Under the pieces are notes generated by a model. The model worked only from the letters and a program-made list of their open reading frames with translations. It made no database searches and had not been told where the DNA came from. Positions 3,893 through 62,500 of a stretch of 64,000 bases of DNA are shown here, piece by piece. The position numbers were made by a program, and so were the translations under genes. The DNA is taken from positions 681,282 through 745,281 of the forward strand of contig JAVHNS010000019.1 in the NCBI GenBank assembly GCA_036872755.1. Direction: 5' to 3'. The first letter of the stretch is position 1; each line of letters begins with the position of its first letter. Origin of the DNA: Orbilia blumenaviensis (Eukaryota > Ascomycota > Orbiliomycetes > Orbiliales > Orbiliaceae).

Positions 3893-4607
3893 CCTCCTTT
3901 TCTCTATCTATTTATCTATCTCACGATATATATATGTAGCTGTATGTTATGGATTCTGTGAGAGTGGGAAAACATTTAAATTGGGATGACAGCGGTGTAT
4001 TATATGATGGGTTATCATTTGATGTATTATATTATGGAATAATGCATTCATTTCCTGGTTCTAAGCTGGTAATACTATATATATAAAATGATAATGATCA
4101 AAATACAAAGAAACGGCCGTGATATAGGAGGCATTAATGGGCATGAGGATAGAACCAAGGAAGAAAGTAGAAGAAACCTTCTTGCTGGTAACAGGAAGCA
4201 GACACTGAGAAAAAAAGCTAGGTAAGTAATATGGTTGGCAAAGATAACGGTGTCTAAAAACTTTTTATACGCGAATAGCAGAAAAAATGATATATGAAAA
4301 AGAGAACAAGGGGAGCATATTAAAAAGAACTCACTGCACGAAACGTGTATAAAGTACCTATGAGTTAGTGTTTGAAGAACAGATAATGATATTATTATCC
4401 TTCTCTTCTATCTCGAAGCAGCAGTTACTAAAATCTCTATGAACAAAGGTGCCGTCTCCGATCACCTGTTTAACGAGATCTTGCGAAAATGCTATGTACA
4501 CCATCTTTTTTTTGTTTAGAAAAGGGGGATGGGTGTGTATGTATGGTGGTCTATAAGATAGTGGGAGAGAGAGAAGGGAGGGGTTACACTTTGTATCGTT
4601 TGTGAAA
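3893..4607. other. Convergent 3' regions of REX1 and RPB4
   Basis: An A/T-rich stretch between two converging genes. It holds TATATA runs that fit 3' end formation. A minus-strand frame at 4358-4618 overlaps the end of RPB4 and has no recognisable content. Confidence 0.5.
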
Positions 4608-36204: not shown

Positions 36205-36664
36205 TGTCACGGCCAGCCATACTAGGTATATCTTGGCATGTCAAACATGAATCCGTTTTCATAGGCTATTTCTCACACTAAAATGATTTTTATTATAAAT
36301 ATTTAGTAGAAGAAAACCATATTAGAAAAAAATAAGTTAAATTATATTATATTGATAATATAATTTTTAAAATAAATTATATAAAAAATATTATATATAA
36401 TTTAACACATTATATATATATAATATTTTTTAAAATATATAATATTTAAATTTATAAATAATTTACATTTATATAAATAATATTTATATATATAAAGATT
36501 TTTAAATAATAATAATTTTAAAATTTTTTTTTAAACTCCATTAATTAACTTATTAATACTTAATATATTTTGTTTATTATTTTTATTTATTGAACTTAAT
36601 ATTCTTTTATTAAAAATTATATTATTTAATATTTTTATATTTAACCCAATTTATTTTAAAAAAA
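36205..36664 (+). repeat. LTR of relic A, left part (RIP-mutated)
   Basis: It begins TGTCACGGCCAGCCATAC, the start of the Gypsy-2 LTR. The first 110 bp keep many G and C; the rest is almost all A/T. It is interrupted at 36,664 by Gypsy-1 and resumes at 43,758-43,841. The two parts together, minus the AAAAA duplication, match the intact 558-bp LTR apart from about 18 bp at the end. Confidence 0.85.
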
Positions 36665-36994
36665 TGTAAGGTTATATGTGCGAGAGTGTGCGTGTCACGA
36701 CGGTTGAGAATATGACCTTAGTTATGGTTATAGATTAAAAGACAAGGAGCTATATACATGACTGCTATCTATGCTTTATATACTGAAGGATATGCGTATC
36801 ACAGCGTCAGGCCGCGGCTCTCTATTGCTTCCGGATCAAGGGAACTGAACTGACGTTGGCCCGAGGACCGAAGTTGCCCGGGTGGGTCTCCGGGTGGGTC
36901 GCCGCGTGTTCGTGTTGCCCGGACCGGGTAGCTCTAGCCGTTGTGTTGACCTTGTTGTATTTTGCGCACCACCGCGTGGGTGCGCGGCCTGACA
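36665..36994 (-). repeat. Gypsy-1 3' LTR
   Basis: A 330-bp repeat. It contains a TATA-like TATATAAAG on the minus strand (near 36,774-36,782), an 11-bp palindrome CCCGGACCGGG at 36,918-36,928 and an inverted repeat GCGCACC/GGTGCGC at its outer end. Confidence 0.93.
36918..36928. promoter_or_regulatory. CGG-A-CCG palindrome in the LTR (also 43,681-43,691)
   Basis: CCCGGACCGGG contains two inverted CGG triplets spaced by one base. Zn(II)2Cys6 proteins as a family bind paired CGG triplets, so this is a candidate operator for the zinc-cluster protein encoded by the same element. The link is an inference. Confidence 0.4.
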
Positions 36995-37827: not shown

Positions 37828-38703
37828 ATGGCTGGCCAACTTGGTATGCGTACTATCGATATCGCGGAAGCGGTTCGTATTAACCTCGGTCCCCCGCTGC
37901 GTACCGCATGCGACCAATGTCAAACTGCAGGCTTTGCTTGCTACCCTTCCCCCGGTGACCACGACGCTTGTTCTCGTTGCCGCAAGAGGCGACTCGGTGC
38001 GACTCGGCCTTGTCAATTTGGGGGTGTCAATTCTACAGCTGCTGGCTTCGCTGCTCGACCCGTTGCGACTCGCATGAGTCAACTTGTTCATCCGGTCACC
38101 CTGACCATGAGGATTCCTGCTGGTGTGGTGGTTCGTCGAGATTGGTGGGAAGCAGCCTTCTTTGAGGTTGCCCCAGTTGCTGTGGGTGCCGCGTCGGGTC
38201 GCTTCGACAATATTCCAGACTTCAACGCCCCCTCGCAGCAAATCGCAACTTTGGAGCACTTGTTGCTTCGAGGAGGTCTTCCCGTGGTTCCTGGGCCGAA
38301 TTCTTTGGTTTCGCGTGTCGCTGCGTTGGAAAGCGCGCTAAGTTCTTTCGTTTCCTGTGGTTGTGGGGTTGGGGGTCCTCCAGCGGTTATTGGAGGTGAT
38401 GGAGGTGATGGTGGGGATGGCGCTGCGGGAGGTGGCGATGGGGGTGGTGATGGAGGAGATGGGAGTGGTGGAGCTCCTCCCCCTGCGGGTGACGGCGGTG
38501 CGGGGGATGGAGGAGATGGCGGAACTGGTGGAGGTGGAGGAGGAGATGGTAGTGGGGCCGCTCTTTGTTATTGCGGTAGAAATGCGGGTCACCGCGGTCC
38601 TCACCGTGGTGGAAGGAGGAAGAAGAAGGATGGAGACGGGAAGACCCGTAAATATAAGGTCTCCAAGAGGAGAAGTCGTCCGGTTTGGTTGCATTATGAG
38701 TAG
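37828..38703 (+). CDS. Gypsy-1 antisense ORF: Zn2Cys6-like cluster, Gly/Asp-rich linker, basic tail
   Basis: An open frame of 291 residues beginning AAAAAAATGG, on the strand opposite gag-pol and between pol and the 3' LTR. Residues about 29-65 hold CDQCQTAGFAC, then CSRCRKRRLG and a last Cys in PCQFG. The spacing is CX2CX6CX9CX2CX10C, close to the binuclear zinc cluster of fungal Gal4-type DNA-binding proteins, with a basic stretch at the expected place. A low-complexity region of Gly and Asp follows. The C-terminus has a short CYCGRNAGHRGPH motif and a strongly basic tail (GGRRKKK, KVSKRRSR), a likely nuclear signal. The C6 spacing in the last loop is longer than usual (6-8). It is not part of canonical retroelement coding. 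Coding is supported by length, start context and the parallel gene in Gypsy-2. Confidence 0.7.
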   Translation: MAGQLGMRTIDIAEAVRINLGPPLRTACDQCQTAGFACYPSPGDHDACSRCRKRRLGATRPCQFGGVNSTAAGFAARPVATRMSQLVHPVTLTMRIPAGVVVRRDWWEAAFFEVAPVAVGAASGRFDNIPDFNAPSQQIATLEHLLLRGGLPVVPGPNSLVSRVAALESALSSFVSCGCGVGGPPAVIGGDGGDGGDGAAGGGDGGGDGGDGSGGAPPPAGDGGAGDGGDGGTGGGGGGDGSGAALCYCGRNAGHRGPHRGGRRKKKDGDGKTRKYKVSKRRSRPVWLHYE

Positions 38704-38884: not shown

Positions 38885-41800
38885 TCAAAGTGTTCTTTTA
38901 AAATCTCTAATCTTAGCCTCAGCGTGCAGTAAGTGTTCTTCAGGCTCCCATGATGCGTCTGCTAGCGACCAACCTTTCCATTTAACCAAATAGTGCTTCG
39001 TCTCGGTGCGGCTCCGTGCGCCCTTCTTGAAATTATCCTCTGCTAATATCTTTTCTATTTCCCATTCTTCCTCTCCCTCTACCTCGACATGCTGCGGCTC
39101 GGGGGGTGCTGGGTGGATTTCATTTATGATATATGGCTCTAGAAGTGACACATGGAAAACATTATGTTGTCTCATCTTCTTAGGTAATGCTAGCTCATAG
39201 GCATGCGTCCCAATGCGGGCCGTGATTCTATATGGACCTAAGAACCTGGCTTCAAGCTTTGCAGAGGGTCGCTTAGTGTCTATATTCTTGCTAGAGAGCA
39301 TAACCTTTTGCCCGACCTCGTATTCTGGTGTCTCGTCTCGCCTCGAGTCGCTGTACCTAGCTTGGTCATTTTGAGCCTGTTTCATCTCTAATTTGCAAGC
39401 CTGATGTAGCAATTTCAACTCCTCGATGCGTTCCTCTGCGGCTGGCACCTTATTTCTCACGAGGTGGTTCGCTTCGAACCGTGGGTGGTAACCATGTTTA
39501 GCAAAGAATGGGGTCATCTTAATTGTCACTTGATAAGTATTATTGTATGCAAACGCTGCGAGCGGAAGCAAGCCGACCCAGTCATTTTGCTTATAATTGC
39601 AATAGTTCCTTATCAGTTGTTCCAAGATCTGGTTGACCCTTTCTGTCTGACCGTCCGTCTCGGGGTGAAACGCGGTGGATTGCTTCCTTGCGATACCTGT
39701 CGCCTCGCAGAGACTCGCTATGAACTTAGAGGTGAAAACTCGTCCTCGATCAGACACAAAGTCGTCTGGAAGACCGTTATGAATTAAGTGTTTCACATAA
39801 GCTTGTGCTAGTTCTTCTGCTTGCGGCTCACCGCGAAGCGGTACAAAGTATGCAAACTTGGTTAACCTGTCTACTACCACCCAAATTGTGTCAAATTCCG
39901 GGCTTGCGTCTCCCAGCGTAGGGTCTCGCGACGGAGGTAATTTGACAATAAAATCCATGGAAATACTGCGCCACGGTGCGTCTGGCACCGGGAGTGGTAG
40001 CAGTTTTCCTTTCTTCAGCCTTCTAATTGTCTTGTTTCGCTGGCAGACGTCGCATCCCGCAATGTATTTGTAAATAAATCCGGTGTATCCTGGGAAGTAA
40101 TAATTCCTAGAGAACAATTCTTGTGTTTTACGATAACCGAAATGGCCTGCTAGAGGAGCGTCGTGTACGCGGTGTACCGCATCCTTACGCAGTTTCAAAA
40201 CATTGGGTATGTATAATCTGCCTTCGAACCGCAGCGTGCCGTCTTCTTCTAATGTATAGCCTGTCGTATATGCCGTGTCGTCTCGCTGTATGGCGCTGAT
40301 AATGCGTTTTACTTTCTCATCTTTGAGATACGCTTTCTTGATGTTATTGATGTCTTGTGAAAATCCAGCGGATATCAGTGCCAGGGTACCAAGTGGCCTA
40401 CTGCGTATCGCTGCGACCAGCTGCCCTGCCTTCAGCAATGGAGGTGGCAGTGATCTATCATGTCCTTCTGTGTATTCTATCTGGCGAGACAATGCGTCTG
40501 CCGCCGCGTTATCCTTTCCTGGACGATATTGAATTGTGAAGTCATAGTCTGCTAGTTCCTCAGACCATCTGACTTGTCTCGCATTGAGTCGCTTTGAGGT
40601 TGTGAAATAAGTTAAGCTTCGGTGATCGCTGTAAATAATGATTTGAAACTGGGCTCCCTTCAGGTACGCCGCCCAGTGTCGCAGTGCCTCGACCACCGCT
40701 AGCATTTCTTGATCAAAAACCTCGTAGTTCCTCTCTGCTCCTGACATTTTTCTGCTCCAAAAACAGACAGGGTGCCAGCGACCCTCTTCGTCCTGTTGCG
40801 AGAGGCAGGCTCCAATTCCGAATCCAGAGGCATCGGTTTCGACCGCAGTGCGTCGCTTCCAGTCGTAGTATGGTAGTACTATTTCAGTTGTAAATTTTCT
40901 TTTGATGCGTTCGAATGCGGCTTGCTGCTCCTCGCCCCATTCCCATGTCTTCTCTTTTGATAAAAGTCTTGTAATTGGTTCTGCTATGGCGCTGTGCCTC
41001 GCAAGGAACCGGTGATAGAAGTTCACAAAACCTAGGAAGGATTGTAGCTGTTTTATATTCTGAGGAGCTTTCCATTGGTGTACAGCTTCTACCTTGCTCT
41101 CGTCCATCGAGATGCCGCGAGTCGACACGGTGAAGCCTAGGAAGTCCACTTTTTCTTTATGGAACTCGCACTTTTCTGCTTTGACATATAATGATGCCGC
41201 TTTGAGTCGCTGCAGCACGGTGCGTACGTGTTCCACATGAGATTTGTAATCCTTAGAGAAGATTAGGATGTCGTCTAAATAAATAATAACGAAGGTATCT
41301 AGCAAGTCGCGGAACAACGCGTTCAGCAGCGACTGGAAGGTCGCTGGTGCATTCGTTAATCCAAACGGCATTACTAAATATTCGTAGAGGCCATATCTTG
41401 TTCTAAACGCTGTTTTCCACTCCTCCCCCGCTGCGATACGCACCAAGTTATAAGCCCCTCTCAGGTCTAATTTAGTGAATATTTTGGCGCCCCGCAGCTG
41501 GTCGAGGAGTCCGTCTATTAAAGGTAGTGGGTACCGGTTTTTTATCGTTATATTATTAAGTGCCCGGTAGTCCACACAGAGCCGCAGTGAGCCGTCCTTC
41601 TTTTTTACGAAAAGAATAGGTGCCCCTGCTGGTGAAGAGGATTCGCGGATGAAGCCTTTCGACTCCATTTCCTCTATATATAATTTTAGTGCCTCATCTT
41701 CGGTTGGAGAAAGCTTATAAATTGGCCCGAAGGGAGGCGCGGTGTCTCGCACCAGTGGGATCTTATGGTCCCAGGGCTGGTGTTCCGGTAGCTTATCTGC

Positions 41801-42508
41801 TGCTTCTTTTTCTCCTAGATCTGCGAAATCGGCGTATTCTTTTGGCATGTGCCGCATCGACTCGCTTTGAGAAGCAGCTTCTTTCAGGACCGTTGCTCCC
41901 ACTAGTACGGAGTCTTCTAGTAGGGAGTCGAATTGTTCCGCTTCAACTAGTCCTATGGTGATAACGCGAGGCCCTGCGGCTCGTCGCATTAGAAGATGGC
42001 CCGTATTCCAATTAATGTCTGGGTTATTTTTGCGTAACCACGCGAGTCCCAGTATGAGATCGAATGATCTGATTTCCATGACATCAAAAGAAATAGATTC
42101 TTCAAAATTGTCTATTTTCATCCCCAAGTCTTCTGTTTTATGCGTGACGCTGCGGCCCAGTGAGGCGCCATTCACTCCTTCGAGTGGGATGACTTCATTC
42201 CTTCTCACTAGAGGTATGCCGTGCCTCGCCGCGAACCGCGTCGCTATGAAGTTGCTAGGTGCACCGCAGTCTATTAATGCTCTGGCTCGCACCGTCTCGC
42301 CGTTCCATGATAGTGTTACTTCTACTACCAAATGGTTGAAATATCCTTCCGGTAGTTTTGTTCCACATATCGCAGCCAGCGTGACGCTGCGTATGACATA
42401 GGTACCCTTTTCTCCAGGCGACGGGAGTTCTGTCGCCTCCATTATTTTTTGATCCCTTGTGCTGCGTGCCGCTGCGGCACTGCCTTGCCATGTGGCCAGA
42501 TTTTCCAC
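38885..42508 (-). CDS. pol: Gypsy-1 Pol: protease, RT, RNase H, integrase, chromodomain
   Basis: An open frame of about 1,207 codons. The protease has LIDCGAPSNF near residue 80 (DCGA where DSGA is usual). The reverse transcriptase has CVDYRALN, PYPLP-like YPLPLID, MPFGLTNAP and the catalytic YLDD near residue 410. RNase H has VETDASGFGIGA and DHRSLTYF. The integrase has the HHCC finger (HRVHDAPLAGHFG, then CDVCQRN, about 780-826), then DDE core motifs SMDFI, VSDRGRVF and DGQTERVNQ. The last 65 residues form a chromodomain (EWEIEKIL, HYLVKWKGW, ASWEPEEHL), placing it in the chromoviruses. The frame overlaps gag by 254 nt in the +1 frame and has no ATG until codon 23, so it is probably made as a Gag-Pol fusion by recoding. 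Confidence 0.95.
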   Translation of the reverse strand: MENLATWQGSAAAARSTRDQKIMEATELPSPGEKGTYVIRSVTLAAICGTKLPEGYFNHLVVEVTLSWNGETVRARALIDCGAPSNFIATRFAARHGIPLVRRNEVIPLEGVNGASLGRSVTHKTEDLGMKIDNFEESISFDVMEIRSFDLILGLAWLRKNNPDINWNTGHLLMRRAAGPRVITIGLVEAEQFDSLLEDSVLVGATVLKEAASQSESMRHMPKEYADFADLGEKEAADKLPEHQPWDHKIPLVRDTAPPFGPIYKLSPTEDEALKLYIEEMESKGFIRESSSPAGAPILFVKKKDGSLRLCVDYRALNNITIKNRYPLPLIDGLLDQLRGAKIFTKLDLRGAYNLVRIAAGEEWKTAFRTRYGLYEYLVMPFGLTNAPATFQSLLNALFRDLLDTFVIIYLDDILIFSKDYKSHVEHVRTVLQRLKAASLYVKAEKCEFHKEKVDFLGFTVSTRGISMDESKVEAVHQWKAPQNIKQLQSFLGFVNFYHRFLARHSAIAEPITRLLSKEKTWEWGEEQQAAFERIKRKFTTEIVLPYYDWKRRTAVETDASGFGIGACLSQQDEEGRWHPVCFWSRKMSGAERNYEVFDQEMLAVVEALRHWAAYLKGAQFQIIIYSDHRSLTYFTTSKRLNARQVRWSEELADYDFTIQYRPGKDNAAADALSRQIEYTEGHDRSLPPPLLKAGQLVAAIRSRPLGTLALISAGFSQDINNIKKAYLKDEKVKRIISAIQRDDTAYTTGYTLEEDGTLRFEGRLYIPNVLKLRKDAVHRVHDAPLAGHFGYRKTQELFSRNYYFPGYTGFIYKYIAGCDVCQRNKTIRRLKKGKLLPLPVPDAPWRSISMDFIVKLPPSRDPTLGDASPEFDTIWVVVDRLTKFAYFVPLRGEPQAEELAQAYVKHLIHNGLPDDFVSDRGRVFTSKFIASLCEATGIARKQSTAFHPETDGQTERVNQILEQLIRNYCNYKQNDWVGLLPLAAFAYNNTYQVTIKMTPFFAKHGYHPRFEANHLVRNKVPAAEERIEELKLLHQACKLEMKQAQNDQARYSDSRRDETPEYEVGQKVMLSSKNIDTKRPSAKLEARFLGPYRITARIGTHAYELALPKKMRQHNVFHVSLLEPYIINEIHPAPPEPQHVEVEGEEEWEIEKILAEDNFKKGARSRTETKHYLVKWKGWSLADASWEPEEHLLHAEAKIRDFKRTL

Positions 42509-43397: not shown

Positions 43398-43427
43398 GGT
43401 AGTAGGTTGAAAGATGGTCTTTTAATA

Positions 43428-43757
43428 TGTAAGGTTATATGTGCGAGAGTGTGCGTGTCACGACGGTTGAGAATATGACCTTAGTTATGGTTATAGATTA
43501 AAAGACAAGGAGCTATATACATGACTGCTATCTATGCTTTATATACTGAAGGATATGCGTATCACAGCGTCAGGCCGCGGCTCTCTATTGCTTCCGGATC
43601 AAGGGAACTGAACTGACGTTGGCCCGAGGACCGAAGTTGCCCGGGTGGGTCTCCGGGTGGGTCGCCGCGTGTTCGTGTTGCCCGGACCGGGTAGCTCTAG
43701 CCGTTGTGTTGACCTTGTTGTATTTTGCGCACCACCGCGTGGGTGCGCGGCCTGACA
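43428..43757 (-). repeat. Gypsy-1 5' LTR
   Basis: A 330-bp copy of the LTR at 36,665-36,994, with the same palindrome at 43,681-43,691. In element orientation it starts TGTCAGGC and ends CTTACA. Confidence 0.93.
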
Positions 43758-43841: not shown

Positions 43842-44354
43842 TGTCACGGCCAGCCATATTAGGTATGTTTTGGCGTGTCAAACATAAATCCATTTTCACA
43901 AACTATTTTTTACACCAAAATAATTTTTATTATAAATATTTAATAAAAAAAAACTATATTAAAAAAAAATAAATTAAATTATATTATATTAATAATATAA
44001 TTTTTAAAATAAATTATATAAAAAGTATTATATATAACTTAGTATATTATATATATATAATATTTTTTAAAATATATAATATTTAAATCTATAAATAATT
44101 CATATTTATATAAATAATATTTATATATATAAAAATTTTTAAATAATAATAATCTCAAAATTCTTTTTTAGATTTTATTAATTAATTTATTAATATTTAA
44201 TATATTTTATTTATTATTTTTATTTATTAAATTTAATATATTTTTATTAAAAATTATATTATTTAATATTTTTATATTTAATTTAATTTATTTTAAAAAA
44301 ATAATTTAAATATTTTAAATTAAGAATATAATTAATTAAAAAATATTAAGTTAT
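43842..44354 (+). repeat. 5' LTR of relic B, left part (RIP-mutated)
   Basis: It begins TGTCACGGCCAGCCATATTAG. The first 90 bp are mildly mutated; the rest is nearly pure A/T. It is interrupted by Gypsy-2 and resumes at 53,545-53,593. Confidence 0.85.
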
Positions 44355-44912
44355 TGTCACGGCCAGCCATACTAGGTATGTCTTGGCGTGTCAAACATGA
44401 GTCCGTTTTCGCAGGCTGTTTCTCACACCGAGATGATTTTTATTATAAATATCCGGCGGGAGAAAACCATACCAGAAAAGAGACGGATTGGACTGTGTTG
44501 TGCCGACAACACAACTCCCAGAACAAACCATGCAGAAAGCGTTATGTGTGGCTTGGCGCGTTATGTGCACATAACGCCCTCCGGGGCACATAACGCCCAA
44601 GTCTATAGACGATTCACATTTGTATGGACGACGCTCATGTATATAAGGACCTTTGAACGATGGCAGTCTCAGGATTCTTTCTTAGACTCCATCGGTCAAC
44701 TTATCAATACTCAATACACTCTGTTTACTACCTTTACCCATTGAACCTAGTATCCCCTTACTAGGAGTTACACTATTTGATATCTCTATATTCAACCCAG
44801 CTTACCTTGAGAGAATAATCTGAATACTTTAGATTGAGAATACGATTAGCCAAAGAACGCTAGGCTGTTTTAGGAATTTCCTATTTGGGAAATACCCGGG
44901 ACAGGTGTAACA
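44355..44912 (+). repeat. Gypsy-2 5' LTR
   Basis: 558 bp, TGTCACGG ... GTGTAACA. It holds the palindromic array at 44,539-44,594 and a TATA box at 44,640. Confidence 0.95.
44539..44648 (+). promoter_or_regulatory. LTR promoter: palindromic array plus TATA box
   Basis: Four copies of GTTATGTG or its complement lie within 56 bp. The two central copies fuse into a perfect 20-bp palindrome at 44,558-44,577 (GCGTTATGTG joined to CACATAACGC), with one outer copy on each side in matching orientation. A TATA box (TATATAAGG) follows at 44,640-44,648. The layout looks like an upstream activating site for a dimeric factor. The same array is present in the 3' LTR at 53,171-53,226 (palindrome 53,190-53,209). 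Confidence 0.6.
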
Positions 44913-44952: not shown

Positions 44953-47900
44953 ATGTCAAGCAATAGCAGTGACGCCGAATATCACGACTTCCACGGCACT
45001 ACTTACGGAATAGGAGACAATCTCTTTGATAGAGTAATACGTCTACCAGTTGCAACTCAAGATCAACAGACGCAGACAGAAGAATCATCTGCAGAACAGG
45101 TTGAATTACCCCCTCTAGAGCTAACCACTGACAGTGAAGATTTAGAATTAGTACGAATCAGTGTTCCGTCCGGACAATATAGAGACACTGAATACATCAG
45201 CGTTACGACTAGGATACAGCCGACGCTAGATCATTTTCGAAGACACGAACGACTACTTAGCACAGCATCAGACTTACTCAACGCAATGGCCAGCGTAGGA
45301 GGACCCTCAAGTGGACAGATTCCACCAACTGTGGAAGATCTCATGACGAGAATAGCCACTTTGGAAGTAGAATACAAGCAAGCTGTCGCAGACAAGGAAG
45401 AAGCGCTCTTACAGAAACAATTGGAATATGAAACCCTCAAAACGGATTACGACAAGGAAAAAGTCAGAACCGGTACTAACAAGGCACCTAAAATCGGAGA
45501 CCCAATAAAGTACTCTGGCAAACCCGAGAAAATTGATCACTTTCTCCACCAACTCTCAACCCATTTTGAAGTACAGGGTGACAGATTTCCAAATGACAGA
45601 CTCAAGGTCATCTTTGCAGGAATGTACTTGGAAGACCCGATCCTCCAAGCATTCATCAACTACAATAATCATTATGTCAAGAATGGAACCGCCTCTGACG
45701 CCCACATCCTCAAGATCATGACGAATTTCGAGGAATTCGTCACGTTCCTTAAACAACAATGCGGAGAAGACGATAAGGTTAACAAGGCCCGTAGGGACCT
45801 TGAAGGACTCAAACAGACTAACTCAGCTCGTGGATACTTCCACAAGTTCAACCAAATCGCCCTTCTCACCGAATGGGACGAATCCAACATCACCTACCGA
45901 GCCCGAGAAGGATTGAAACCAGAGCTGAAGGTTCAAGTCCTTCTCAGAGAACAACAACTCGGAAAACCCCTCGAACGCATGGAAATGCAGAAGATGGTCA
46001 TCGAAATCGACGACATCTACTGGCGAAATAAGCACGGTCAGGGAAAGAAGAATTTCCACGACCATGGTCCTAAGAAGGACAAGAACAAGGGGAAGGCACC
46101 CCAGAACCAGAATAATAAAGGAAATGGGAACTGGCGTAAGAATAAGGATGGAAGTTTTACTCCAAATAAAACTTTTGGCCCAGCCCCCATGGATCTCAAC
46201 ACAACTCGACACAATTACCCGCACAACAAGGAGCCCAAGGGACCAAAATCTAACAGCCCTATTTGCTACAATTGCAACAAATCTGGGCATATTGCTAGAA
46301 ATTGCGACGAGCCACGACAAAATAACACATTTCAACAACGCAGAAATGTCAGATTCGCGAACACCAACTCTCCACCACCACCTACTACGAAGAAAGTTCA
46401 AATGACACACCAGTCTACTCCTCAGGAGATCGAACAACTTCAGCAGCGAATTCTTGAGCAAGCCTCAAACTGCTCAACCACCTCCGATCAACCTATGAAC
46501 ACCCCCGAGTCTACCACCCAAGAAGAAGAAACTGGACTTGAAGTTGCCCCAGTCACCCATGATCCAACTCCTCAAGAATATCATTGGCTTTGGAACAATC
46601 CGACGCCTGGAGTTCATTTGAACTACGAGAGGCGCCCTAACGGAGAACTCTTCCAGGAGTACATGTCTGAAGGGATTCACTATACCCGCCTAGTTCATAT
46701 TGACCCCATACCACGAAATCCTAAGGTTCATCTACGATCCACTAATGTAGTAGAGGACCCCCTCACCAAAATGGATTTATCACTCGCTTACGACCAAATC
46801 TCCCACAGATGGGAAGATCTTCCTATGGAACACTCAAGTGATGAAGAGGAAGCCTACAAAGAAGTTCCCTCTAGCCCTTCAACTACGTCCTACAGGAGCT
46901 GGGATGACGACGAAGCCTTTGCCCCTGAGACCTACGTTGACGACATAATCCCTATGGAACTCGAAGAAGGACAAGTCCGATGTATGGATTGTCAGAAAGG
47001 AACCCACAACTGGCGCGAAAGTTACAACCGTACAACTCAAAGTCGATCGGACCGCAGATGTCTAGACTGCTACACTACTTTCACTGCTGGATGTGCCGGA
47101 TACAGATATGCTGAAAACCGGAAATGGCCCTCCTCTAAGAAATACCAAGATGCCCTCTTCTATGCTAATAGCGACCTTTATGGAGTCGACTTTGCAGAAG
47201 ATTGGGAAACCTACCATAAAGGAATCGAAGACGTCGATTCCCCTCCTACCTACGAACAAACCGATGAGATTGGATGCATTGCTTCGGAATATTGGGAAGT
47301 TGCTCCCGATTGCCACCTGTGCGAGACCCGACCCTCAGATGTGAGACTCTACGACCACGCTCTCTATCTTTGCGATCTCTGCCACGATGGATGGAGCTTA
47401 TACACTGGATATTTCAACTTCGTCCAACTTACCCCCTACGATCCCAATACCCCTTTTAATTGCAGGAAATGCCCCTGTCAATATCCCTTTCGAACCATCA
47501 TTCAACTCTTAACTCACCAAGATACTTGCATCACTCAATTCGACACCGACTACGAGGAAGAAACCACAGAATACCACAGAAAGGACAAACACTATTGTAC
47601 AGCCGGTACCAAACATATCACCAAGCACGGCTTGATCAAGAAGGAGAATCGCCGATGCCGACTCTGCAGAAAACCAGCTGTCTACTCGTTTTATGGAGGA
47701 TACGACCTCTGTATCAACCACACCCGAAAATATGTCACCTTCACTGGAAATCCTCATGTCCTAGAAATCAAACCAAATGCTCGAAACGTAGGATGGCGAT
47801 GCATGTACTGCCGAGACCTCACCTTTGACACCTGGCTTGACTTCAGACATCATTTCCAGGAAGATCACCCCAACCACGGACAGGATGACCCTGCCTCACC

Positions 47901-48030
47901 TTACTACCGACTTAAAATCACCGATCTTAAACGAGGTCACCTTGAACCAAGACCCAACAGATTCCTCCACATCAACAAGATTGAATTTGCCGACGTCTAT
48001 GGAAGAATGAACATGGAAGGAAAAAACTAA
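44953..48030 (+). CDS. gag: Gypsy-2 Gag, oversized, with C-terminal Cys/His-rich array
   Basis: 1,025 residues, two to three times the usual Gag. Residues about 115-165 form a coiled coil, followed by a capsid region (IKYSGKPEKIDHFLHQL, VIFAGMYLEDPILQAF, ARGYFHKFNQIALLTEW). The nucleocapsid knuckle CYNCNKSGHIARNC is at 438-451. Instead of ending there, the frame continues for 570 residues: an acidic region, then Cys/His pairs at C677/C680 with C703/C706, C787/C790 with C807/C810, C837/C840/C842 with C859, C902/C905 with C920, and a C2H2-like C950/C953 with His residues near 968-976. These look like four or five zinc-binding modules of unknown type. The frame ends in AAC TAA inside the frameshift signal. 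The added domain could bind nucleic acid or host factors; this is inference. Confidence 0.92.
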   Translation: MSSNSSDAEYHDFHGTTYGIGDNLFDRVIRLPVATQDQQTQTEESSAEQVELPPLELTTDSEDLELVRISVPSGQYRDTEYISVTTRIQPTLDHFRRHERLLSTASDLLNAMASVGGPSSGQIPPTVEDLMTRIATLEVEYKQAVADKEEALLQKQLEYETLKTDYDKEKVRTGTNKAPKIGDPIKYSGKPEKIDHFLHQLSTHFEVQGDRFPNDRLKVIFAGMYLEDPILQAFINYNNHYVKNGTASDAHILKIMTNFEEFVTFLKQQCGEDDKVNKARRDLEGLKQTNSARGYFHKFNQIALLTEWDESNITYRAREGLKPELKVQVLLREQQLGKPLERMEMQKMVIEIDDIYWRNKHGQGKKNFHDHGPKKDKNKGKAPQNQNNKGNGNWRKNKDGSFTPNKTFGPAPMDLNTTRHNYPHNKEPKGPKSNSPICYNCNKSGHIARNCDEPRQNNTFQQRRNVRFANTNSPPPPTTKKVQMTHQSTPQEIEQLQQRILEQASNCSTTSDQPMNTPESTTQEEETGLEVAPVTHDPTPQEYHWLWNNPTPGVHLNYERRPNGELFQEYMSEGIHYTRLVHIDPIPRNPKVHLRSTNVVEDPLTKMDLSLAYDQISHRWEDLPMEHSSDEEEAYKEVPSSPSTTSYRSWDDDEAFAPETYVDDIIPMELEEGQVRCMDCQKGTHNWRESYNRTTQSRSDRRCLDCYTTFTAGCAGYRYAENRKWPSSKKYQDALFYANSDLYGVDFAEDWETYHKGIEDVDSPPTYEQTDEIGCIASEYWEVAPDCHLCETRPSDVRLYDHALYLCDLCHDGWSLYTGYFNFVQLTPYDPNTPFNCRKCPCQYPFRTIIQLLTHQDTCITQFDTDYEEETTEYHRKDKHYCTAGTKHITKHGLIKKENRRCRLCRKPAVYSFYGGYDLCINHTRKYVTFTGNPHVLEIKPNARNVGWRCMYCRDLTFDTWLDFRHHFQEDHPNHGQDDPASPYYRLKITDLKRGHLEPRPNRFLHINKIEFADVYGRMNMEGKN

Positions 48031-48060
48031 GAAAACTTCAGGACTCGATGCCGCCTGAAG
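48021..48060 (+). promoter_or_regulatory. -1 programmed frameshift signal (slippery heptamer and hairpin)
   Basis: The heptamer A AAA AAC (48,021-48,027) lies in the Gag frame, directly followed by the Gag stop TAA. After an 8-nt spacer comes a perfect 7-bp stem, CTTCAGG at 48,036-48,042 with CCTGAAG at 48,054-48,060, enclosing an 11-nt loop. Slipping by -1 enters the Pol frame, which is open across the site (CTA AGA AAA CTT). The parts match known viral and retroelement -1 signals. Confidence 0.8.
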
Positions 48061-51000
48061 GGTCCAAGTTACGCATCGTTAAAAATGGACCATCCAAACA
48101 ACTTTCCTTACAGTCAACCAAAAATCATTTCTTTCTACCAGTCAACATTAACGGAAACTCCAGCACGTCTTTATTAGACTGTGGAGCAGAAGATTCATTC
48201 ATTCACCCCGAAGTTGTCAAACAACTTAAACTACCTTACATTCAGAAACTTCAGAAAACACATGTTACCGCCTTCGATAATAGCCCTCTTGGAACAATCA
48301 CTCACGAAACCACTTTCACACTTCTTATAAATGGACACTTGGAAACAATCACGATGGATATCCTAGAGACCCCCCACGAATTGGTTCTCGGATTCCCTTG
48401 GTTGGAAGAACATAACCCAAGTATTAACTGGAAAACTCGACACCTTGAATTCTCGAGATGCGATTGTAGAAAGATCTATTCCAAGATCCGACCGGACAAT
48501 CGACCCCCAAAAGAAGCTCATCACCGACTCACCCAACATATGTCACAAAAAGAAGTTAACAACCGTCTCCGAAACAAACCTCATTCCATAAGACATGTTT
48601 TTCTCAAAATACGAGAAATTAACAAAGAAAAGAAGGAGATTCCAGATTGGATTCTCGAAGATAATAAATTGGTCTTTCAGCCCCCAGACGAAAGGGACCC
48701 CCTACCGAAAATCAATCAATTCACACATCATATCCCTCTAAAGGAAGGAACCCAACCAAAATCTCTACCTATATACGCATGTACAGAAGAAGAAACTGCG
48801 GCTCTACGCGAATACATTGACGAAAACCTTCGCAATGGATTCATACGACCTTCTAACTCACCCGCAGGACACCCTATACTATTCGTACCAAAACCTAATG
48901 GAAAACTGCGAATATGTATCGATTACAGAAGCTTGAACGACATTACGATCAAAGACACTGGACCCCTACCACTGATAAGCGAGTCTTTCGATCGCTTAAC
49001 AGGAGCAAATTACTTCACCAAATTGGATATTATCAATGCCTACTACAATATCAGGATAAATCCAGGAGAAGAATGGAAAACGGCTTTTCGATGCCGCTAC
49101 GGTCTATTTGAATACTTGGTTATGCCATTTGGGCTAACCAATGCACCAGCTTCTTTCCAAGCTTTTATGAACCATGTGCTTCGAGAGCACATAGATGTCA
49201 TTTGTGTTGTCTACCTAGATGACATTTTGATTTTCAGCAAGACGCTGGGAAAACACAAGGAAAACGTCAACGCAGTGTTGAAATCCCTCCGGGACTACGA
49301 CCTACGTGTGGCGCTAGACAAGTCAGAATTTGCTGTTACTGAATGCGAATTCTTAGGAGCCATAGTCACCTCGAATGGAATTAAGATGGACCCAAAGAAG
49401 GTTCAAGCCATTCAAGATTGGCCTCTCCCTGAGAATGTCAAAGAAGTGCAGTCATTTCTTGGACTTTGCAATTATTATCGACGATTTATTCGGAAATACA
49501 GCTTCATGTCAGCAGCGCTTTCCGAACTCACCAAGAAACAACTGAAGTTTGAAATGACGCCCGAAAGAGTTCAAGCCTTTGAAACTCTGAAAAAATCATT
49601 TACCTCCGCCCCCATTCTCAAACTTTACGATCCGAAATTACCTATCAAGATTGAAACCGACGCCTCTACAGCAGCGCTAGGAGCCTGCTTACTCCAACTC
49701 CATAAGGACAAACAATGGTACCCCATTGCCTACATCTCTCACAAATTCGATGCTACGCAACTGCGATACGCTATTCATGACAAGGAATTGATGGCTATTG
49801 TAGAAGCATGTCGAAAATGGCGCGTTTACCTCCAAAGCAAAGAACCTTTCACAGTTCTATCCGATCACAAGAACCTCACTTACTTCCTAACCACGAAGGA
49901 ACTTAGCAGACGGCAAGTTCGATGGTGGGAACTCCTCAGCGAATATAGCATGAAGATAATACACTTTAAAGGAAAAGAGAATGCTCTCGCAGATGCGATA
50001 AGCAGGAGACCAGACCTTGTCAAAGGCGTTGAACCTGACAAAGGAGCAATTCTCAAATATGGCGATACTAAGGACCAGATTCTCATCAATAAATCCCTGA
50101 ATCTGACAGAACACAATATCGAAGATGATCTTCGACAGAAAGTCCTCAAAGCCTATGAACAAGACCCTGTTGCACAACGGATCTTGAAGAAAGAAGATAC
50201 ACCCCCTCACTTTGAATTAGTCGACGGAATTATTATGTTTCGAGACTCGTTCTACATCCCAACTAAGAAACTTCAAGAAGAAATCATCTCTTTACACCAC
50301 GATCACCCAGCTCATGGTCATCTTGGAATTGACCGTACTCAGGAACTTATCACAAAGACTTATTTCTGGCCTCAGATGAGAAAGCAGATCGAAGAATACA
50401 TCAAAACTTGCGATCTTTGCTGCAGAAACAAGCCTAACCGACACAAACCTTACGGAACCCTTCAACCACACGACGTACCAAGTGCACCCTTCGAAGTTAT
50501 TACTTACGACTTTGTACAAGGAATGCCTCCAGCACGAGACCCCCTCACCAACAAGCTGTACGACGAAATATTGGTTATCACGGACAAGTTGACAAAAGTT
50601 GCTATTTTTGTCCCATGGGATAGCCAATGGGGAGCCAAAGAATTACAACAAGTCTACCACAACCATGTTTTCTCTAAATATGGAATCCAACGAAAACACA
50701 TTTCTGATCGCGACCCTCTTTTTACGAGCAAATATTGGCAGTCAATTATGAACCAAACTGGTACTAAATTGAACATTGCAACCAAAGGTCACGCTCAAAC
50801 GGACGGAGCCTCCGAGAGACTCATCCAAACCCTTGAAATCTACCTTCGAAACTTCCTCAACTACGCTCAAAATAATTGGATACCCCTTCTACCCATGGCA
50901 GAATTCACCTACAACACTTCTCAACATTCAACTACTAAGTACACCCCGTACGAAGTACTGAGAGGATGGACGCCTAAGGCTATTCTTCCCCCTCTCACGC

Positions 51001-51608
51001 CGAAAGAAGTTGTCCCCGAAGCTGAAGAACATATGAAATCAATGAAGAATGCTCATAATATTCTCGTAAAAGACCTTCAGTTCTCACAAGAAAGAATGAG
51101 CCATTACTACGACAAACGACGGGAGGAAGCCCCAGATTTTAAAGAAGGAGATAAAGCATATCTGCTTGCACGAAACTTGAAAACCAAGCGACCTAATAAA
51201 AAACTTGATTTTCAGAAATTTGGCCCATACGTAATCAAGAAGAAACTTGGAAAGCACCATTTTGAACTTGACATACCTGGACCAACACGGATACACAAGA
51301 CATTTCATGTCTCAGTCTTAGAAAGAGCCCCTCCAGGACTCAGAGAAGACCCGAACGAGATTGAAATCGAATACGACGACTACGCGGAATACGAAGTTGA
51401 AAGAATCCTTGACGGACCTAACGGCGACAACGAATACCTTATTCGTTGGGCTGCTCCCTACGGACCAGAAGACGATTCTTGGCAACCAGAAGAAAATATT
51501 TCGCCACAAACTATACAGGATTACCTTAGGAACAGGGACCCACCCCATCAACCTGATGCCCCTGCACCTAAACGAGGACGAGGAAGACCTAAGAAAAATA
51601 GAGATTAG
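48048..51608 (+). CDS. pol: Gypsy-2 Pol: protease, RT, RNase H, integrase, chromodomain, AT-hook
   Basis: 1,186 residues counted from the first ATG; as a Gag-Pol fusion it would begin at the frameshift. Protease LLDCGAEDSF with D44. Reverse transcriptase with CIDYRSLND, MPFGLTNAP and YLDD at 389-392. RNase H with IETDASTAALGA and DHKNLTYF. Integrase finger HHDHPAHGHLG to CDLCCRNK (about 750-793), then DDE motifs ITYDF, SDRDPLFTS and DGASERLIQ. The tail holds a chromodomain-like unit (YEVERILDG, EYLIRW, DSWQPEENI; about 1,107-1,160) and then an AT-hook, KRGRGRPKKN. A chromodomain can read histone methylation and an AT-hook binds the minor groove of A/T DNA. Together they suit targeting to RIP-bleached heterochromatin, which is where the element sits. 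Confidence 0.95.
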   Translation: MPPEGSKLRIVKNGPSKQLSLQSTKNHFFLPVNINGNSSTSLLDCGAEDSFIHPEVVKQLKLPYIQKLQKTHVTAFDNSPLGTITHETTFTLLINGHLETITMDILETPHELVLGFPWLEEHNPSINWKTRHLEFSRCDCRKIYSKIRPDNRPPKEAHHRLTQHMSQKEVNNRLRNKPHSIRHVFLKIREINKEKKEIPDWILEDNKLVFQPPDERDPLPKINQFTHHIPLKEGTQPKSLPIYACTEEETAALREYIDENLRNGFIRPSNSPAGHPILFVPKPNGKLRICIDYRSLNDITIKDTGPLPLISESFDRLTGANYFTKLDIINAYYNIRINPGEEWKTAFRCRYGLFEYLVMPFGLTNAPASFQAFMNHVLREHIDVICVVYLDDILIFSKTLGKHKENVNAVLKSLRDYDLRVALDKSEFAVTECEFLGAIVTSNGIKMDPKKVQAIQDWPLPENVKEVQSFLGLCNYYRRFIRKYSFMSAALSELTKKQLKFEMTPERVQAFETLKKSFTSAPILKLYDPKLPIKIETDASTAALGACLLQLHKDKQWYPIAYISHKFDATQLRYAIHDKELMAIVEACRKWRVYLQSKEPFTVLSDHKNLTYFLTTKELSRRQVRWWELLSEYSMKIIHFKGKENALADAISRRPDLVKGVEPDKGAILKYGDTKDQILINKSLNLTEHNIEDDLRQKVLKAYEQDPVAQRILKKEDTPPHFELVDGIIMFRDSFYIPTKKLQEEIISLHHDHPAHGHLGIDRTQELITKTYFWPQMRKQIEEYIKTCDLCCRNKPNRHKPYGTLQPHDVPSAPFEVITYDFVQGMPPARDPLTNKLYDEILVITDKLTKVAIFVPWDSQWGAKELQQVYHNHVFSKYGIQRKHISDRDPLFTSKYWQSIMNQTGTKLNIATKGHAQTDGASERLIQTLEIYLRNFLNYAQNNWIPLLPMAEFTYNTSQHSTTKYTPYEVLRGWTPKAILPPLTPKEVVPEAEEHMKSMKNAHNILVKDLQFSQERMSHYYDKRREEAPDFKEGDKAYLLARNLKTKRPNKKLDFQKFGPYVIKKKLGKHHFELDIPGPTRIHKTFHVSVLERAPPGLREDPNEIEIEYDDYAEYEVERILDGPNGDNEYLIRWAAPYGPEDDSWQPEENISPQTIQDYLRNRDPPHQPDAPAPKRGRGRPKKNRD

Positions 51609-51962: not shown

Positions 51963-52661
51963 TCAGATAGTACTCTGAAGGAAATCCTCCATGGAAAACG
52001 CGAGATAACTCTCATCCCACCCAGCAGAAAAATCCACCGCATCCGCTGGGATGTCGCAGAAGAAGTCAAGCACCTCATCAGGCGCTGACGAACCTTCACC
52101 AGCCCCTTCTTCAACGATCGGATCATCTCCGAATATCATATCATTTTCTATGACTCTCTGTTCTTCATGAAGAAGAGATTCTCGATACTTCCGCGCGATT
52201 ACTGAAGCCTCAGTGGATTGACGTTTTAATTCAGCCGCAACAGTGTTGAACTCAGCCAGAAGCTCTGTGAGCTTTGTCTGACCTTCGATGACTTTTTGAT
52301 GTGCTATTTCATACCGAGCAGAAGTTTCTTCCAATTCTTTGAACTTCTTGTCTCGAATTTCCGCAATACGATCCACTAAAGATTTTGGATTAGAAACACC
52401 CCACAAAGCGGAGAAAAACAAAAATCACTTACAAGGAATTGCATTGCATTTTCCTACTCTGCCCTGTCTATGACAGACTTCGCACTTGATGCTCTTTTCC
52501 AACATGACGCAAATATGACCGTTCGCGACGCAGTGTGAACACGGAACTGCAGCCTCTAAACCTTCTGACTTGAACCGCTCAAGAAAGATGGCCCTTCTTC
52601 GTTTTGCTTGGACGCGATTCTCTGATCTTTTTTTAGGTTTTTGAATGGCGCTCCGTTGCAT
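51963..52661 (-). CDS. Gypsy-2 antisense gene: Zn2Cys6-like cluster, coiled coil, acidic tail
   Basis: A two-exon gene on the strand opposite gag-pol: 52661-52433 and 52375-51963, 213 residues. The intron has donor GTAAGT, a CTAAT branch-like site and TTTAG acceptor, in phase 1. The basic N-terminus (KRRRAIF) precedes CSHCVANGHIC and then CEVCHRQGRVGKC, spacing CX2CX6CX8CX2CX8C, very close to a fungal binuclear zinc cluster. Exon 2 gives a long heptad-rich helix (about 80-150: IRDKKFKELEETSARYEI, LTELLAEFNTVAAELKRQ), a likely dimerisation coil. The end is acidic with aromatic residues (EEGAGEGSSAPDE, FSMEDFLQS), resembling an activation domain. This layout is that of a small zinc-cluster transcription factor. 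Inverted relic C keeps the same intron signature at 60,129-60,148, so the gene is an old part of this family. Function is inferred. Confidence 0.78.
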
Positions 52662-52986
52662 GATCAGAATGAAAGATTTGATATTATTTTGTATGTATGA
52701 AAGAATATTTTGTGGTTTAAGTTTTGAAATTTAGTTATGGTGCGAATTGCAGTTATTTATGTTTGATTTTGATTACATAATCATGTAACGTGATCATGAA
52801 GGCTAAGCCTTCGGACACGAGAATTCTTGTACACAAATTTCTCCCAGACGGTTTTCCCGTACGGTAGAATTTTGTAGACGAATTTTGTACAAAGGCCCTT
52901 TACCCAGTTTTGTTGCATCTCCTATGTGCGAGAAGATCCCGCATGGGAATTTCCCTTTTGGGAGTTTCCCTTGAAGGAGGAGATAG
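52662..52986. promoter_or_regulatory. Upstream region of the antisense gene and polypurine tract
   Basis: 325 bp between the antisense start codon and the 3' LTR. It should contain the promoter of the antisense gene (minus) and the purine tract GAAGGAGGAGATAG (52,973-52,986) that primes plus-strand DNA synthesis. Confidence 0.55.
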
Positions 52987-53544
52987 TGTCACGGCCAGCC
53001 ATACTAGGTATGTCTTGGCGTGTCAAACATGAGTCCGTTTTCGCAGGCTGTTTCTCACACCGAGATGATTTTTATTATAAATATCCGGCGGGAGAAAACC
53101 ATACCAGAAAAGAGACGGATTGGACTGTGTTGTGCCGACAACACAACTCCCAGAACAAACCATGCAGAAAGCGTTATGTGTGGCTTGGCGCGTTATGTGC
53201 ACATAACGCCCTCCGGGGCACATAACGCCCAAGTCTATAGACGATTCACATTTGTATGGACGACGCTCATGTATATAAGGACCTTTGAACGATGGCAGTC
53301 TCAGGATTCTTTCTTAGACTCCATCGGTCAACTTATCAATACTCAATACACTCTGTTTACTACCTTTACCCATTGAACCTAGTATCCCCTTACTAGGAGT
53401 TACACTATTTGATATCTCTATATTCAACCCAGCTTACCTTGAGAGAATAATCTGAATACTTTAGATTGAGAATACGATTAGCCAAAGAACGCTAGGCTGT
53501 TTTAGGAATTTCCTATTTGGGAAATACCCGGGACAGGTGTAACA
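52987..53544 (+). repeat. Gypsy-2 3' LTR
   Basis: A 558-bp copy of the LTR at 44,355-44,912; no difference was seen in the parts compared. Confidence 0.95.
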
Positions 53545-59539: not shown

Positions 59540-62500
59540 TTATTTTTTTTTTTAAAAAAAAATTTTAAAAAGAAAATTTTTATATAAAATTTTTTTATTA
59601 AAAAAAAATATAATAAAATTAGGTAAAAAATCTTTATATAAAATTTATTTATAAAATTTTATTATATAAAAAAATTATTTAAAAAAAATTTATATATAAA
59701 AATTTTTATATTTAAAAATTTAATTTTTATAATTATATTATATAATTATATAATTAAAATTAAATATAAATAATTATAATTTATATTATAATTAAATTTT
59801 AAAATTTAAATTATAAAATATTTTTTATATATATAAAATAATATTAAATTTTTCATTTTAATTATATAATAAAATATTATTTAAAAATTTAAAAAAAAAT
59901 TAGAAAATTATATTTAAATAAAACAAAAAAAAACTATTTTTTTTAAATAATTTAAATCAAAAAATTTAAAAATTATAATTTTATATTTATATTATATTAT
60001 AAATAGTTATATTTATATTATATTAAAAAAAAATATTAAATATAAAATTTATTATAAATAAAATAAAATAAGAAAATGTAATATAATTTTTTATAAATAA
60101 TTTTTATTTTTTTTTATTTTATAAAATATTTCTAATCCAAAATCTTTAATAAATTATATTATAAAAATTTAAAATAAAAAGTTTAAAAAATTAGAAAAAA
60201 TTTTTATTTAATATAAAATAACATATTAAAAAATTATTAAAAGTTAAATAAAGTTTATAAAGTTTTTGGTTAAATTTAATATTATTATAATTAAATTAAA
60301 ATATTAATTTACTAAAATTTTAATAATTATGTAAAAATATTAAAAATCTTTTTTTCATAAAAAATAAAAAATTATAAAAAATAATATAATATTTAAAAAT
60401 AATTTAATTATTAAAAAAAAAACTAATAAAAATTTATTAATATTTAATAAAATATTTAATTTTTTTTATAATATTTTAATAAATATAATAAATTTTTTTA
60501 CTAAGTAAAATAAAAATTATTTTATATTTTTTATAAAAAATTTTTTTTAAAATATTATTTAAAATTTAATTAATTTTTTGTTATATATTTGTAATTTTTC
60601 ATTTTTAAATTAAATTATATTTTATTATTTTGTTATAATTTATATTAAATTATTAATTTTAATAATTTGTAATATTATTTTATTGATATAGTTTTTATAT
60701 AATTATTTATTAATATTATTAGAATATAAGATTTTATTAATTAAAGAAATAAAATATTTAAAAAAAATTAAAAAATAATTAAATAAATAATATTATAGGT
60801 GTTTATTTAGGTTATATATTTATAAAAATAAATGTTTGTAAAAAAATTTGTGAGTATAAAAACTGGTTAGATAGAAAAACTATATTTTTATAAATCAAAA
60901 ATTTATAAAGTATGTTAATTTTTATTTTTTTTAAGTTTTTTTTGTTTTTGTTTAGGTGTAAAGATATTAGATTAATAAAGTAAATTTTTGTTTTTAAAAT
61001 AATTTTATATAATTTATAATAAAATATTTTTTTTTAATTGTTAAGAATTATTTTTTAATTTATAAAAAACAGTTTAATGAATAAAATATTTATTATTATT
61101 ATTAAATTTATTAAAGATTTTTTTAATTTTGTATTTTATATAATTATTATATTTAATTTTAATTTTATTTAAATTTTTTTTAAATTTTGGAAAAGTTTTT
61201 TTTAAAATTAAAATATAAAATGTCTTATATATTTATATTAATTTAGATATATTAAATTTAAAATAATATTTTCTAAATTTTTTTTTAATTATATATAAAT
61301 TAAATTTTTAAAAATTAAATTTTTTATTAAATTATTTAATTTTTAAATTTCATATAAATAAATATGTTTTATTTTTTTTTTTAAAATTTAAAACTTCCTC
61401 CCATTATTTATTATAATAATAATTTATTTTTTTTTATAAAAATTAAAAATTTTTCATAAAAATATTATAAACATTTTTTATTAATTTCATATATTTTTCA
61501 ACTTTAAAAACAACTTTTTTTAATATAAAAAAAAGAAAAATAATTTTAAGTATTTATTTTTTTAATATTTTATACAAAATATATTTAATAATTAAATATT
61601 AAGAAATATTATAAATAAATTTTGTTATAAGTAAAAAAAGTATTTAATTATTTTAAATATAATTAAGAAAATTTTAAAAATAAATTTTAAAAATTTAAAT
61701 AAATTTTTCAAAAGCTTTATTTATTTAAATATAATTTTTAATTATAATATTTAATTTAATATTAATTTAATTCATAATTAATTATTAATATTTGTTTATA
61801 AAAAAAAAATTATAATTAAAAATATATTTTTATTAAATTTTATATTTAAAAAAAATATAATTATAATAAATTTATTATAATTCTTTAATTTTTTATTAAC
61901 TATCCTACAAAATAAAAATAATAATTTTTGTTAATTTATTCATAATAACCAATATTTTATTATATAATTTATTAATAAGGGAGTTTTATATTAAAAATAT
62001 TTTTTATATAAAATTATAAGTAATAATTTTAAAAAATATATTTAATATATTATATAATTAAAAAATTTTATAAAATTTATATTAATTAAACTTATTTTTA
62101 TAATAAAGATTATAAATTTTAATATACTCTTCAATCTATTTTCTCATCTAAAACTAAAAATAAATTTTTATAATAAATTTCTAAATACAATTAATTTTAA
62201 AATAATTATAAACTAAATAATCATAATATAAAAAAATAAATTTTTTTTAAAATTTCTTAATTAAAATATAAAATAAATTTTAAAATATAATAATTTCATT
62301 AATTAATTTAAAATAAAAAAATATATTTTTTTTTTTTAAAATTTTTTATATAATAAAATTTTATTTATAAGTTTTAAGAATTTTTTATTAAAAATTATTT
62401 TTAATATTATATTTTATTAAATTTAGAAATTTATTAATAAAAATTTAATTCTTAATATTACTATATTTAAAAATTATTTTTTTATTAAATTTAATATTTT

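Follow-up and report, generated by a model that had tools for sequence, protein, structure and literature searches.

A Gypsy retrotransposon of the fungus Orbilia blumenaviensis, here called E2, carries a two-exon antisense gene whose product is a putative zinc-cluster protein. With a probability of about 0.6, we take this protein to bind DNA and to regulate the LTR of the element that encodes it. Genomic comparison found that the second exon of this gene is under purifying selection, that an array of four decamers in the U3 region of the LTR is kept where the first exon is unchanged, and that in one lineage of copies the first exon and the array have changed together. The initial annotation of the window (a stretch of 64,000 nucleotides of contig JAVHNS010000019.1) had named control of the element's own LTR as one possible role for the gene, and this role is plausible.

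E2 is bounded by two identical LTRs of 558 bp with TG...CA ends (44355..44912 and 52987..53544, plus strand), and is surrounded by a 5-bp duplication, GTTAT. The gag ORF (44953..48030, plus strand) encodes 1025 aa with Retrotrans_gag and zf-CCHC zinc knuckle matches, and the pol ORF (48048..51608, plus strand) encodes 1186 aa with Pfam matches for protease-like, reverse transcriptase (RT), RNase H, integrase and chromodomain regions. The chromodomain (PF00385) lies at residues 1115-1160, after RT and RNase H and at the integrase C-terminus, and scored 26.8 bits against a cut-off of 25.1. Together with the gag match, these domains confirm the earlier classification of the element as a chromovirus. 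The gag protein is unusually long and has several CxxC pairs besides the zinc knuckle in its C-terminal half, where no Pfam domain was found above the cut-off. Rfam and tRNA scans of the window were empty. An AT-rich sequence adjoining E2 (43842-44354) resembles the start of the E2 LTR (a 98-nt unit, 86%), which suggests that E2 was inserted beside an earlier, RIP-mutated copy. The window also contains a RIP-mutated copy of the E2 antisense gene at 59876..60553 on the plus strand (G000:C19:741157-741834), which belongs to type I as defined below.

The antisense gene is located between pol and the 3' LTR on the opposite strand, where the initial annotation had placed it, with its ATG at 52661 and its stop codon ending at 51963 (minus strand). 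Exon 1 (52433..52661) encodes residues 1-76 and the first base of codon 77, comprising a basic N-terminus and the Cys6 cluster, and exon 2 (51963..52375) encodes a middle segment, an acidic tail and the stop. The spliced CDS of 642 nt corresponds to 213 aa plus stop, and the unspliced frame reaches a stop within the intron. The intron (52376..52432) is 57 bp long, with a GTAAGT donor, a CTAAT branch-like site and a TTTAG acceptor, in agreement with the near-perfect splice sites noted before; judged from these signals and from the comparison of copies, the gene is apparently spliced. In the protein, the N-terminus is basic (net charge +8 over residues 1-40), the six cysteines at residues 41, 44, 51, 60, 63 and 72 have the predicted spacing CX2CX6CX8CX2CX8C, and the tail is acidic as had been claimed (net charge -17 over residues 151-213, with no K or R). 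A coiled coil had also been proposed, and was abandoned after its heptad score was matched by 3354 of 20,000 shuffles. The stretch between the gene and U3 (52712..53011), which includes a presumed antisense promoter, the polypurine tract and the start of the LTR, is conserved: its fixed transversions between the type II and type III copies described below (1/283) are per base fewer than those of exon 2 in the comparison with the window copy. This low divergence may reflect constraint on the antisense promoter.

Zn2Cys6 clusters have the consensus spacing CX2CX6CX5-12CX2CX6-8C, usually with a basic run within the first loop, and form short helices at their two CxxC pairs. The spacing in the E2 antisense protein agrees with this generally known consensus. 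None of 200,000 shuffled versions of the protein reproduced the Cys6 pattern, and among 289 window ORFs (stop-to-stop, at least 60 codons, last gap slightly widened to 6-10) it was found in just two, the E2 antisense gene and the antisense gene of a second element, E1, for whose product 200,000 shuffles likewise gave none. The E2 protein resembles Gal4-type Zn2Cys6 factors (PF00172) in its Cys spacing, basic flank and acidic tail, but differs from them in having no Pfam match, the Zn_clus profile giving none up to E 10, and in lacking the basic run that the first loop normally contains. Of the transcription-factor layout first described, the cysteine spacing and the acidic tail stand, and the coiled coil does not. 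An AlphaFold model of exon 1 (single sequence, mean pLDDT 68) has short helices at residues 42-47 and 61-66, at both CxxC pairs; as a prediction it fits the Zn2Cys6 fold as commonly known, and proves nothing. The six Cys codons are preserved in type III copies with p = 0.04 counted by bases and 0.11 counted by codons, which is weak evidence for the cluster.

Genome searches (42.46 Mb) found 12 copies that are identical across the 699-bp gene. The pol gene is free of stops in all 12 of these intact copies; in one of them the LTR-array spacing is 8631 instead of 8632 and the pol match ends at residue 1183. Diverged exon 2 sequences were found at a minimum of 62 further places. Fifty-two of these were fetched, and 10 weak or partial ones were omitted; L069 aligned poorly, and from L046, which ends at a contig end, just exon 2 and the last part of exon 1 were used. 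Most of the 52 differ from the window copy almost wholly by transitions and are thus RIP-mutated. An AT-rich and apparently RIP-mutated rDNA unit (L040; G000:C9:2230318-2233471; 5.8S 46 bits) was also seen, about 18.5 kb from an intact rDNA unit (5.8S 162 bits).

Since RIP makes no transversions, transversions are a usable signal of selection, and a transversion-only test on the RIP-hit copies was used in place of dN/dS; the 12 intact copies are identical over the gene, and dN/dS on ordinary RIP-hit copies was uninformative, as these have nearly zero transversions. Transversions are plentiful in one subfamily, type III (L048, L054, L087, L091 and the partial copy L046). In exon 2, the transversions common to at least three type III copies comprise seven synonymous and four conservative nonsynonymous changes, where 16% synonymous would be expected (p = 6e-4). 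With RIP ambiguity allowed, eight of the 11 changed codons are synonymous-compatible in the true frame; the five alternative frames give 1, 2, 0, 4 and 0 of 11. The data show purifying selection on exon 2, a new finding for this gene. Exon 1 by itself, with six synonymous and 24 nonsynonymous transversions, has no purifying-selection signal; of its 23 codons, 6 can be synonymous in the true frame, and 6, 3, 5, 3 and 1 in the remaining frames. For comparison, gag and pol were examined in two of the four type III copies: transversions at codon positions 1, 2 and 3 numbered 2:0:10 in pol and 6:8:11 in gag of one copy, and 3:1:12 in pol and 6:8:12 in gag of the second. In the multiple alignment the sole frame-changing indel common to type III is a 2-nt deletion located in the intron; pairwise alignment gives a 2-nt insertion and a 2-nt deletion within exon 1 that compensate each other. 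Private frame-changing indels are present in both exons of L087.

The candidate target of the protein lies in U3. At LTR positions 185-242 (44539..44596 in the 5' LTR and 53171..53228 in the 3' LTR) an array of four decamers was found, GCGTTATGTG twice and then CACATAACGC twice. As CACATAACGC is the reverse complement of GCGTTATGTG, the decamers form two inverted pairs, the inner of which is a perfect 20-bp palindrome. Exact copies of this 20-mer are present at 24 genomic places with the spacing of 12 LTR pairs, and versions with three mismatches at two other sites. The presumed TATA box of the sense promoter, TATATAA (53272..53278, plus strand), lies 43 bp downstream of the array and is retained in the four type III copies and the one type II copy inspected. 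The placing of four decamers as inverted pairs upstream of a TATA box in U3 is a new observation. A second palindrome, TGTGTTGTGCCGACAACACA, is found upstream of the array at LTR positions 140-159 (44494-44513 and 53126-53145).

To classify the diverged copies, the 3' LTR side of 50 of them was taken and 45 were classed; the other five (L056, L066, L071, L084 and L088) have no alignable LTR. Type I (22 copies) has a U3 as in the window element, type II (18 copies) combines a different left part of U3 (U3-left) with the usual exon 1 and array, and in type III (four copies) both exon 1 and the array are changed. The usual array was kept in all 41 copies with the usual exon 1, though 18 of these have a different and one (L062) an intermediate U3-left; the changed array was found in all four copies with the changed exon 1. 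A scan for decamers in purine/pyrimidine coding, which is blind to RIP, found all four free of transversions in 22/22 type I and 17/17 scanned type II copies (L053 gave no anchor). Between types I and II the decamers are unchanged (0/40) whereas U3-left is changed at 22/151 positions (Fisher p = 0.005).

The group comparisons of types I, II and III were made on a sample of three of the 22 type I copies plus the window E2, seven of the 18 type II copies and all four type III copies. In the multiple alignment, the array has transversions between types II and III at 13/56 positions, plus 10 gap columns, and the sequence immediately preceding the ATG has them at 10/49. The gene-to-U3 stretch, by contrast, has 1/283, U3-left 8/161 and the TATA-R-U5 region 0/281. 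Compared with the window copy, type III differs at 35/229 positions in exon 1, 11/413 in exon 2 and 0/141 in the 3' flank, and one type III copy has 37/6632 differences in gag and pol combined. The choice of alignment affects these counts. Aligned pairwise, exon 1 gives 28-29/227 and the array 7-8/58 with 10-12 gap positions; the 50 bp before the ATG have just two or three transversions with 7-8 gap positions, and the gene-to-U3 stretch, set against the window copy, has 7-11/300. By either count, exon 1 and the array are about 20 to 40 times more changed than the backbone. The zinc-cluster exon and the U3 array thus appear to have diverged jointly in one subfamily, with near-identical sequence between them. 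Relaxed selection alone should not surpass the neutral rate so far; the divergence more likely stems from rapid adaptation or from sequence imported from a different lineage, and in either case the two stretches went together. The coupled change is confined to one lineage (four copies, and a fifth, partial one without LTR) and therefore counts as one event, so that p-values based on copies overstate independence.

The changed array also has a regular structure. In all four type III copies, four units are each changed at one identical position of the motif, the fourth. By our own assignment, three of these units match old units in place, orientation and spacing, one is extra, and one old unit was lost with a 10-bp deletion; the multiple alignment gaps the middle unit differently. 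Four such units were reached in 91-167 of 20,000 run-preserving shuffles per copy, and chance decamer matches with one change occur in every type, the purine/pyrimidine coding being of low complexity. The concerted change at motif position 4 would be the trace expected from an altered binding specificity.

The other multi-copy Gypsy family found intact, E1, also carries an antisense Cys6 gene, so that both multi-copy chromovirus families found intact have one; this too is new. The E1 pol (38885..42508, minus strand) has a chromodomain and is 42% identical to the E2 pol over the matched stretch, and the E1 LTRs are about 331 bp long (3' LTR at 36664..36994, minus strand; partner copy at 43427-43757). 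The antisense gene (37828..38703, plus strand; 291 aa) is located between pol and the 3' LTR, with its cluster (37909-38013) at the N-terminus of the protein. Ten pol copies without stops and 10 identical copies of the antisense gene were found. The two antisense proteins have no detectable similarity by BLASTP (E 2.9), and their MAFFT alignment is not trustworthy; homology between them was rejected as a claim. Neither has a Pfam match above the cut-off. Protein database searches found no relative at E 0.01 of the E2 protein among 247 candidates, nor of the E1 protein among the 8000 candidates that had most words in common with it. An AlphaFold model of the E1 antisense protein had a mean pLDDT of 37 and was discarded as useless.

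The E1 antisense gene follows the same trend as that of E2 less clearly. Its transversion sites are distributed 4:5:15 over the codon positions (1:4:9 for sites present in at least three of five copies), and 8/13 codons are synonymous-compatible in frame against 0/14, 4/12, 1/13, 7/12 and 1/14 in the other frames, though one antisense frame (7/12) almost equals the true one. Five coding indels in L093 are all multiples of three; other E1 sister copies also have indels that are not. With 0-3/240 changes in the cluster part and 0-2/331 in the alignable LTRs (L094 has no alignable LTR), both are nearly constant, and E1 therefore provides no second coupled switch. Repeats of the CCCGG type and an imperfect GC-rich palindrome are found near the start of the E1 LTR and may be sites for the E1 antisense factor. 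The genome also contains a third intact Gypsy-type element (L167; G000:C7:1117600-1127500; C7:1122539), with a single gag-pol frame of 1946 aa (3155-8995, minus strand) that has RT, RNase H and integrase and no chromodomain match. It has exact 103-bp repeats near 2854 and 9362, with little room between pol and the end repeat, and no antisense Cys6 ORF was found among its 55 ORFs. The statement that all intact Gypsy families carry the gene is contradicted by this element, and such a gene is thus not required by every such element.

From these data we propose the following mode of action for E2, with the protein acting in the nucleus. The antisense gene would be transcribed from the region between the gene and the 3' LTR. 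Exon 1, with its N-terminus resembling a basic nuclear signal and its Zn2Cys6-like cluster, which we infer to bind zinc, would recognise the U3 decamers upstream of the TATA box. The protein would bind the array probably as a dimer, since the decamers are inverted pairs. Exon 2, with its constrained middle segment and acidic tail, would act on transcription or chromatin; given the acidic tail, activation or anti-silencing of the element's own LTR is the most likely direction of the effect. At the exon boundary, a recognition module open to change would adjoin an effector module that is conserved. The intron would outlast retrotransposition because the genomic RNA carries it in an orientation that cannot be spliced.

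Several other explanations have to be weighed against a regulator of this kind. That a host factor binds the array is unlikely, though to be taken seriously; the antisense protein would then act elsewhere, for example in nuclear import of the integration complex or in RNA binding, and the coupling in type III would be a coincidence of two separate imports out of another element. There is only one coupled event, the array sits where a host activator site would, and other roles are conceivable for Cys clusters. However, the full palindrome is found solely at the LTR-pair places of this element and at two mismatched sites, and the decamers stay fixed while the neighbouring U3 changes and are altered just with exon 1. 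Of much the same standing is a variant in which the protein is no classical transcription factor but an anti-silencing factor on the DNA or chromatin of its own element, comparable to VANC of Arabidopsis. In the excerpt of PMC5735166, a transposon-encoded protein and motif repeats that change jointly are the pattern of VANC, and heavy RIP, with about 60 mutated gene copies, would give E2 a reason to have such a factor; yet the acidic tail and an array close to the TATA box suit a transcription factor at least equally.

An active antisense transcript in place of a protein is less probable than either. Pairing with the genomic RNA and feeding into silencing or copy control, a role of this type has been proposed for antisense RNAs of LTR-element antisense ORFs (PMC7264820, in the part consulted). 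Against it stand the codon-aware selection seen in exon 2 and, with less clarity, in the antisense gene of E1, as well as the Cys6 clusters of both antisense genes. In the multiple alignment, moreover, the sole frame-changing indel common to type III falls within the intron, although the pairwise one also puts a compensating 2-nt insertion/deletion pair into exon 1. Least of all do we favour a functionless passenger captured from the host, which we regard as very improbable. The intron and the transcription-factor-like layout do resemble a host gene, and capture of a host gene was among the origins first considered; but the database held no relative at E 0.01, the gene is present in 12 intact copies and in a diverged subfamily with exon 2 under selection, and an element LTR lies beside 45 of the 50 diverged copies read on the 3' LTR side (part of the weak genome matches were inspected). 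A capture from the host is thus unsupported, and regulation of the element's own LTR by the antisense protein is the reading we prefer.

An antisense gene in Boty-like elements of Botrytis was reportedly named brtn by Zhao et al. in 2011 (Virology 417:248). The excerpts of four papers (PMC8365987, PMC7264820, PMC4227169, PMC5987419) describe brtn in Boty-like retrotransposons (BcGypsy1) of Botrytis cinerea, with relatives in Sclerotinia and Monilinia; Boty is also treated in PMC8131559, as far as excerpted. Like the E2 gene, brtn is an antisense gene of a fungal chromodomain Gypsy element, situated between pol and 3' LTR (PMC7264820); no role or target site is stated for brtn in these excerpts, and the function of antisense ORFs at this place is given as not known in the part of the review seen (PMC7264820). 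E2 itself was rejected as a Boty/BcGypsy1 element: the published Boty primers match nowhere in the window with up to three mismatches, and primer B1830 nowhere in the genome with up to two; the ITS of this genome, moreover, is not that of Botrytis. The claim of the initial annotation that such a gene was undescribed is unsupported in its original form, since an antisense gene in a fungal Gypsy element is known as brtn; the zinc cluster and the splicing may still be new. In the literature searched (titles and beginnings of abstracts, most subscription journals lying outside), no antisense gene with a zinc cluster is described for any fungal Gypsy element, nor did the excerpts examined mention a joint change of cluster exon and LTR array or a zinc cluster in two families.

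Plant Gypsy elements have antisense ORFs in the same place and on the same strand (Grande gene23, RIRE2, Retand TRP28, PvRetro13; PMC7264820, PMC11963269). A nuclear or DNA-binding role is suggested for them in the excerpt of PMC7264820, and DNA binding for Retand TRP28 in that of PMC11963269; they differ from the E2 gene in encoding other proteins (TRP28, SMC-like), and no promoter target is named in these excerpts. HBZ of HTLV-1 is an antisense, spliced bZIP factor whose expression is driven by the 3' LTR and which affects sense transcription (PMC10186651, in excerpt). As described there, it is like the E2 gene an antisense, spliced regulator resembling a transcription factor. It is, however, a retroviral bZIP protein with which no homology is expected, and as no Pfam bZIP match was found in the E2 antisense protein, the latter does not count as a bZIP factor of the HBZ kind. 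To our knowledge, HBZ has no Cys6 cluster. The VANDAL elements of Arabidopsis are DNA transposons. Their anti-silencing protein VANC evolves jointly with short motif repeats in the noncoding DNA of the element (PMC5735166, in the part available). E2 is similar in having an element-encoded protein and a short motif array that changed jointly, in one lineage and with an array that is a putative target; the VANC systems differ in belonging to plant elements and, in the part of the source seen, in acting through loss of DNA methylation.

With somewhat less than even odds, we suggest more generally that fungal chromoviruses carry a factor/operator pair that switches specificity together between subfamilies and so insulates sister lineages from each other, as a counterpart of VANC and its motifs. 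E2 supplies a protein module and a 10-bp candidate target, and it has a natural subfamily with changes in both of them. If this is true, retrotransposons would control their own activity by means of a private transcription factor, the specificity of which evolves along with the target.
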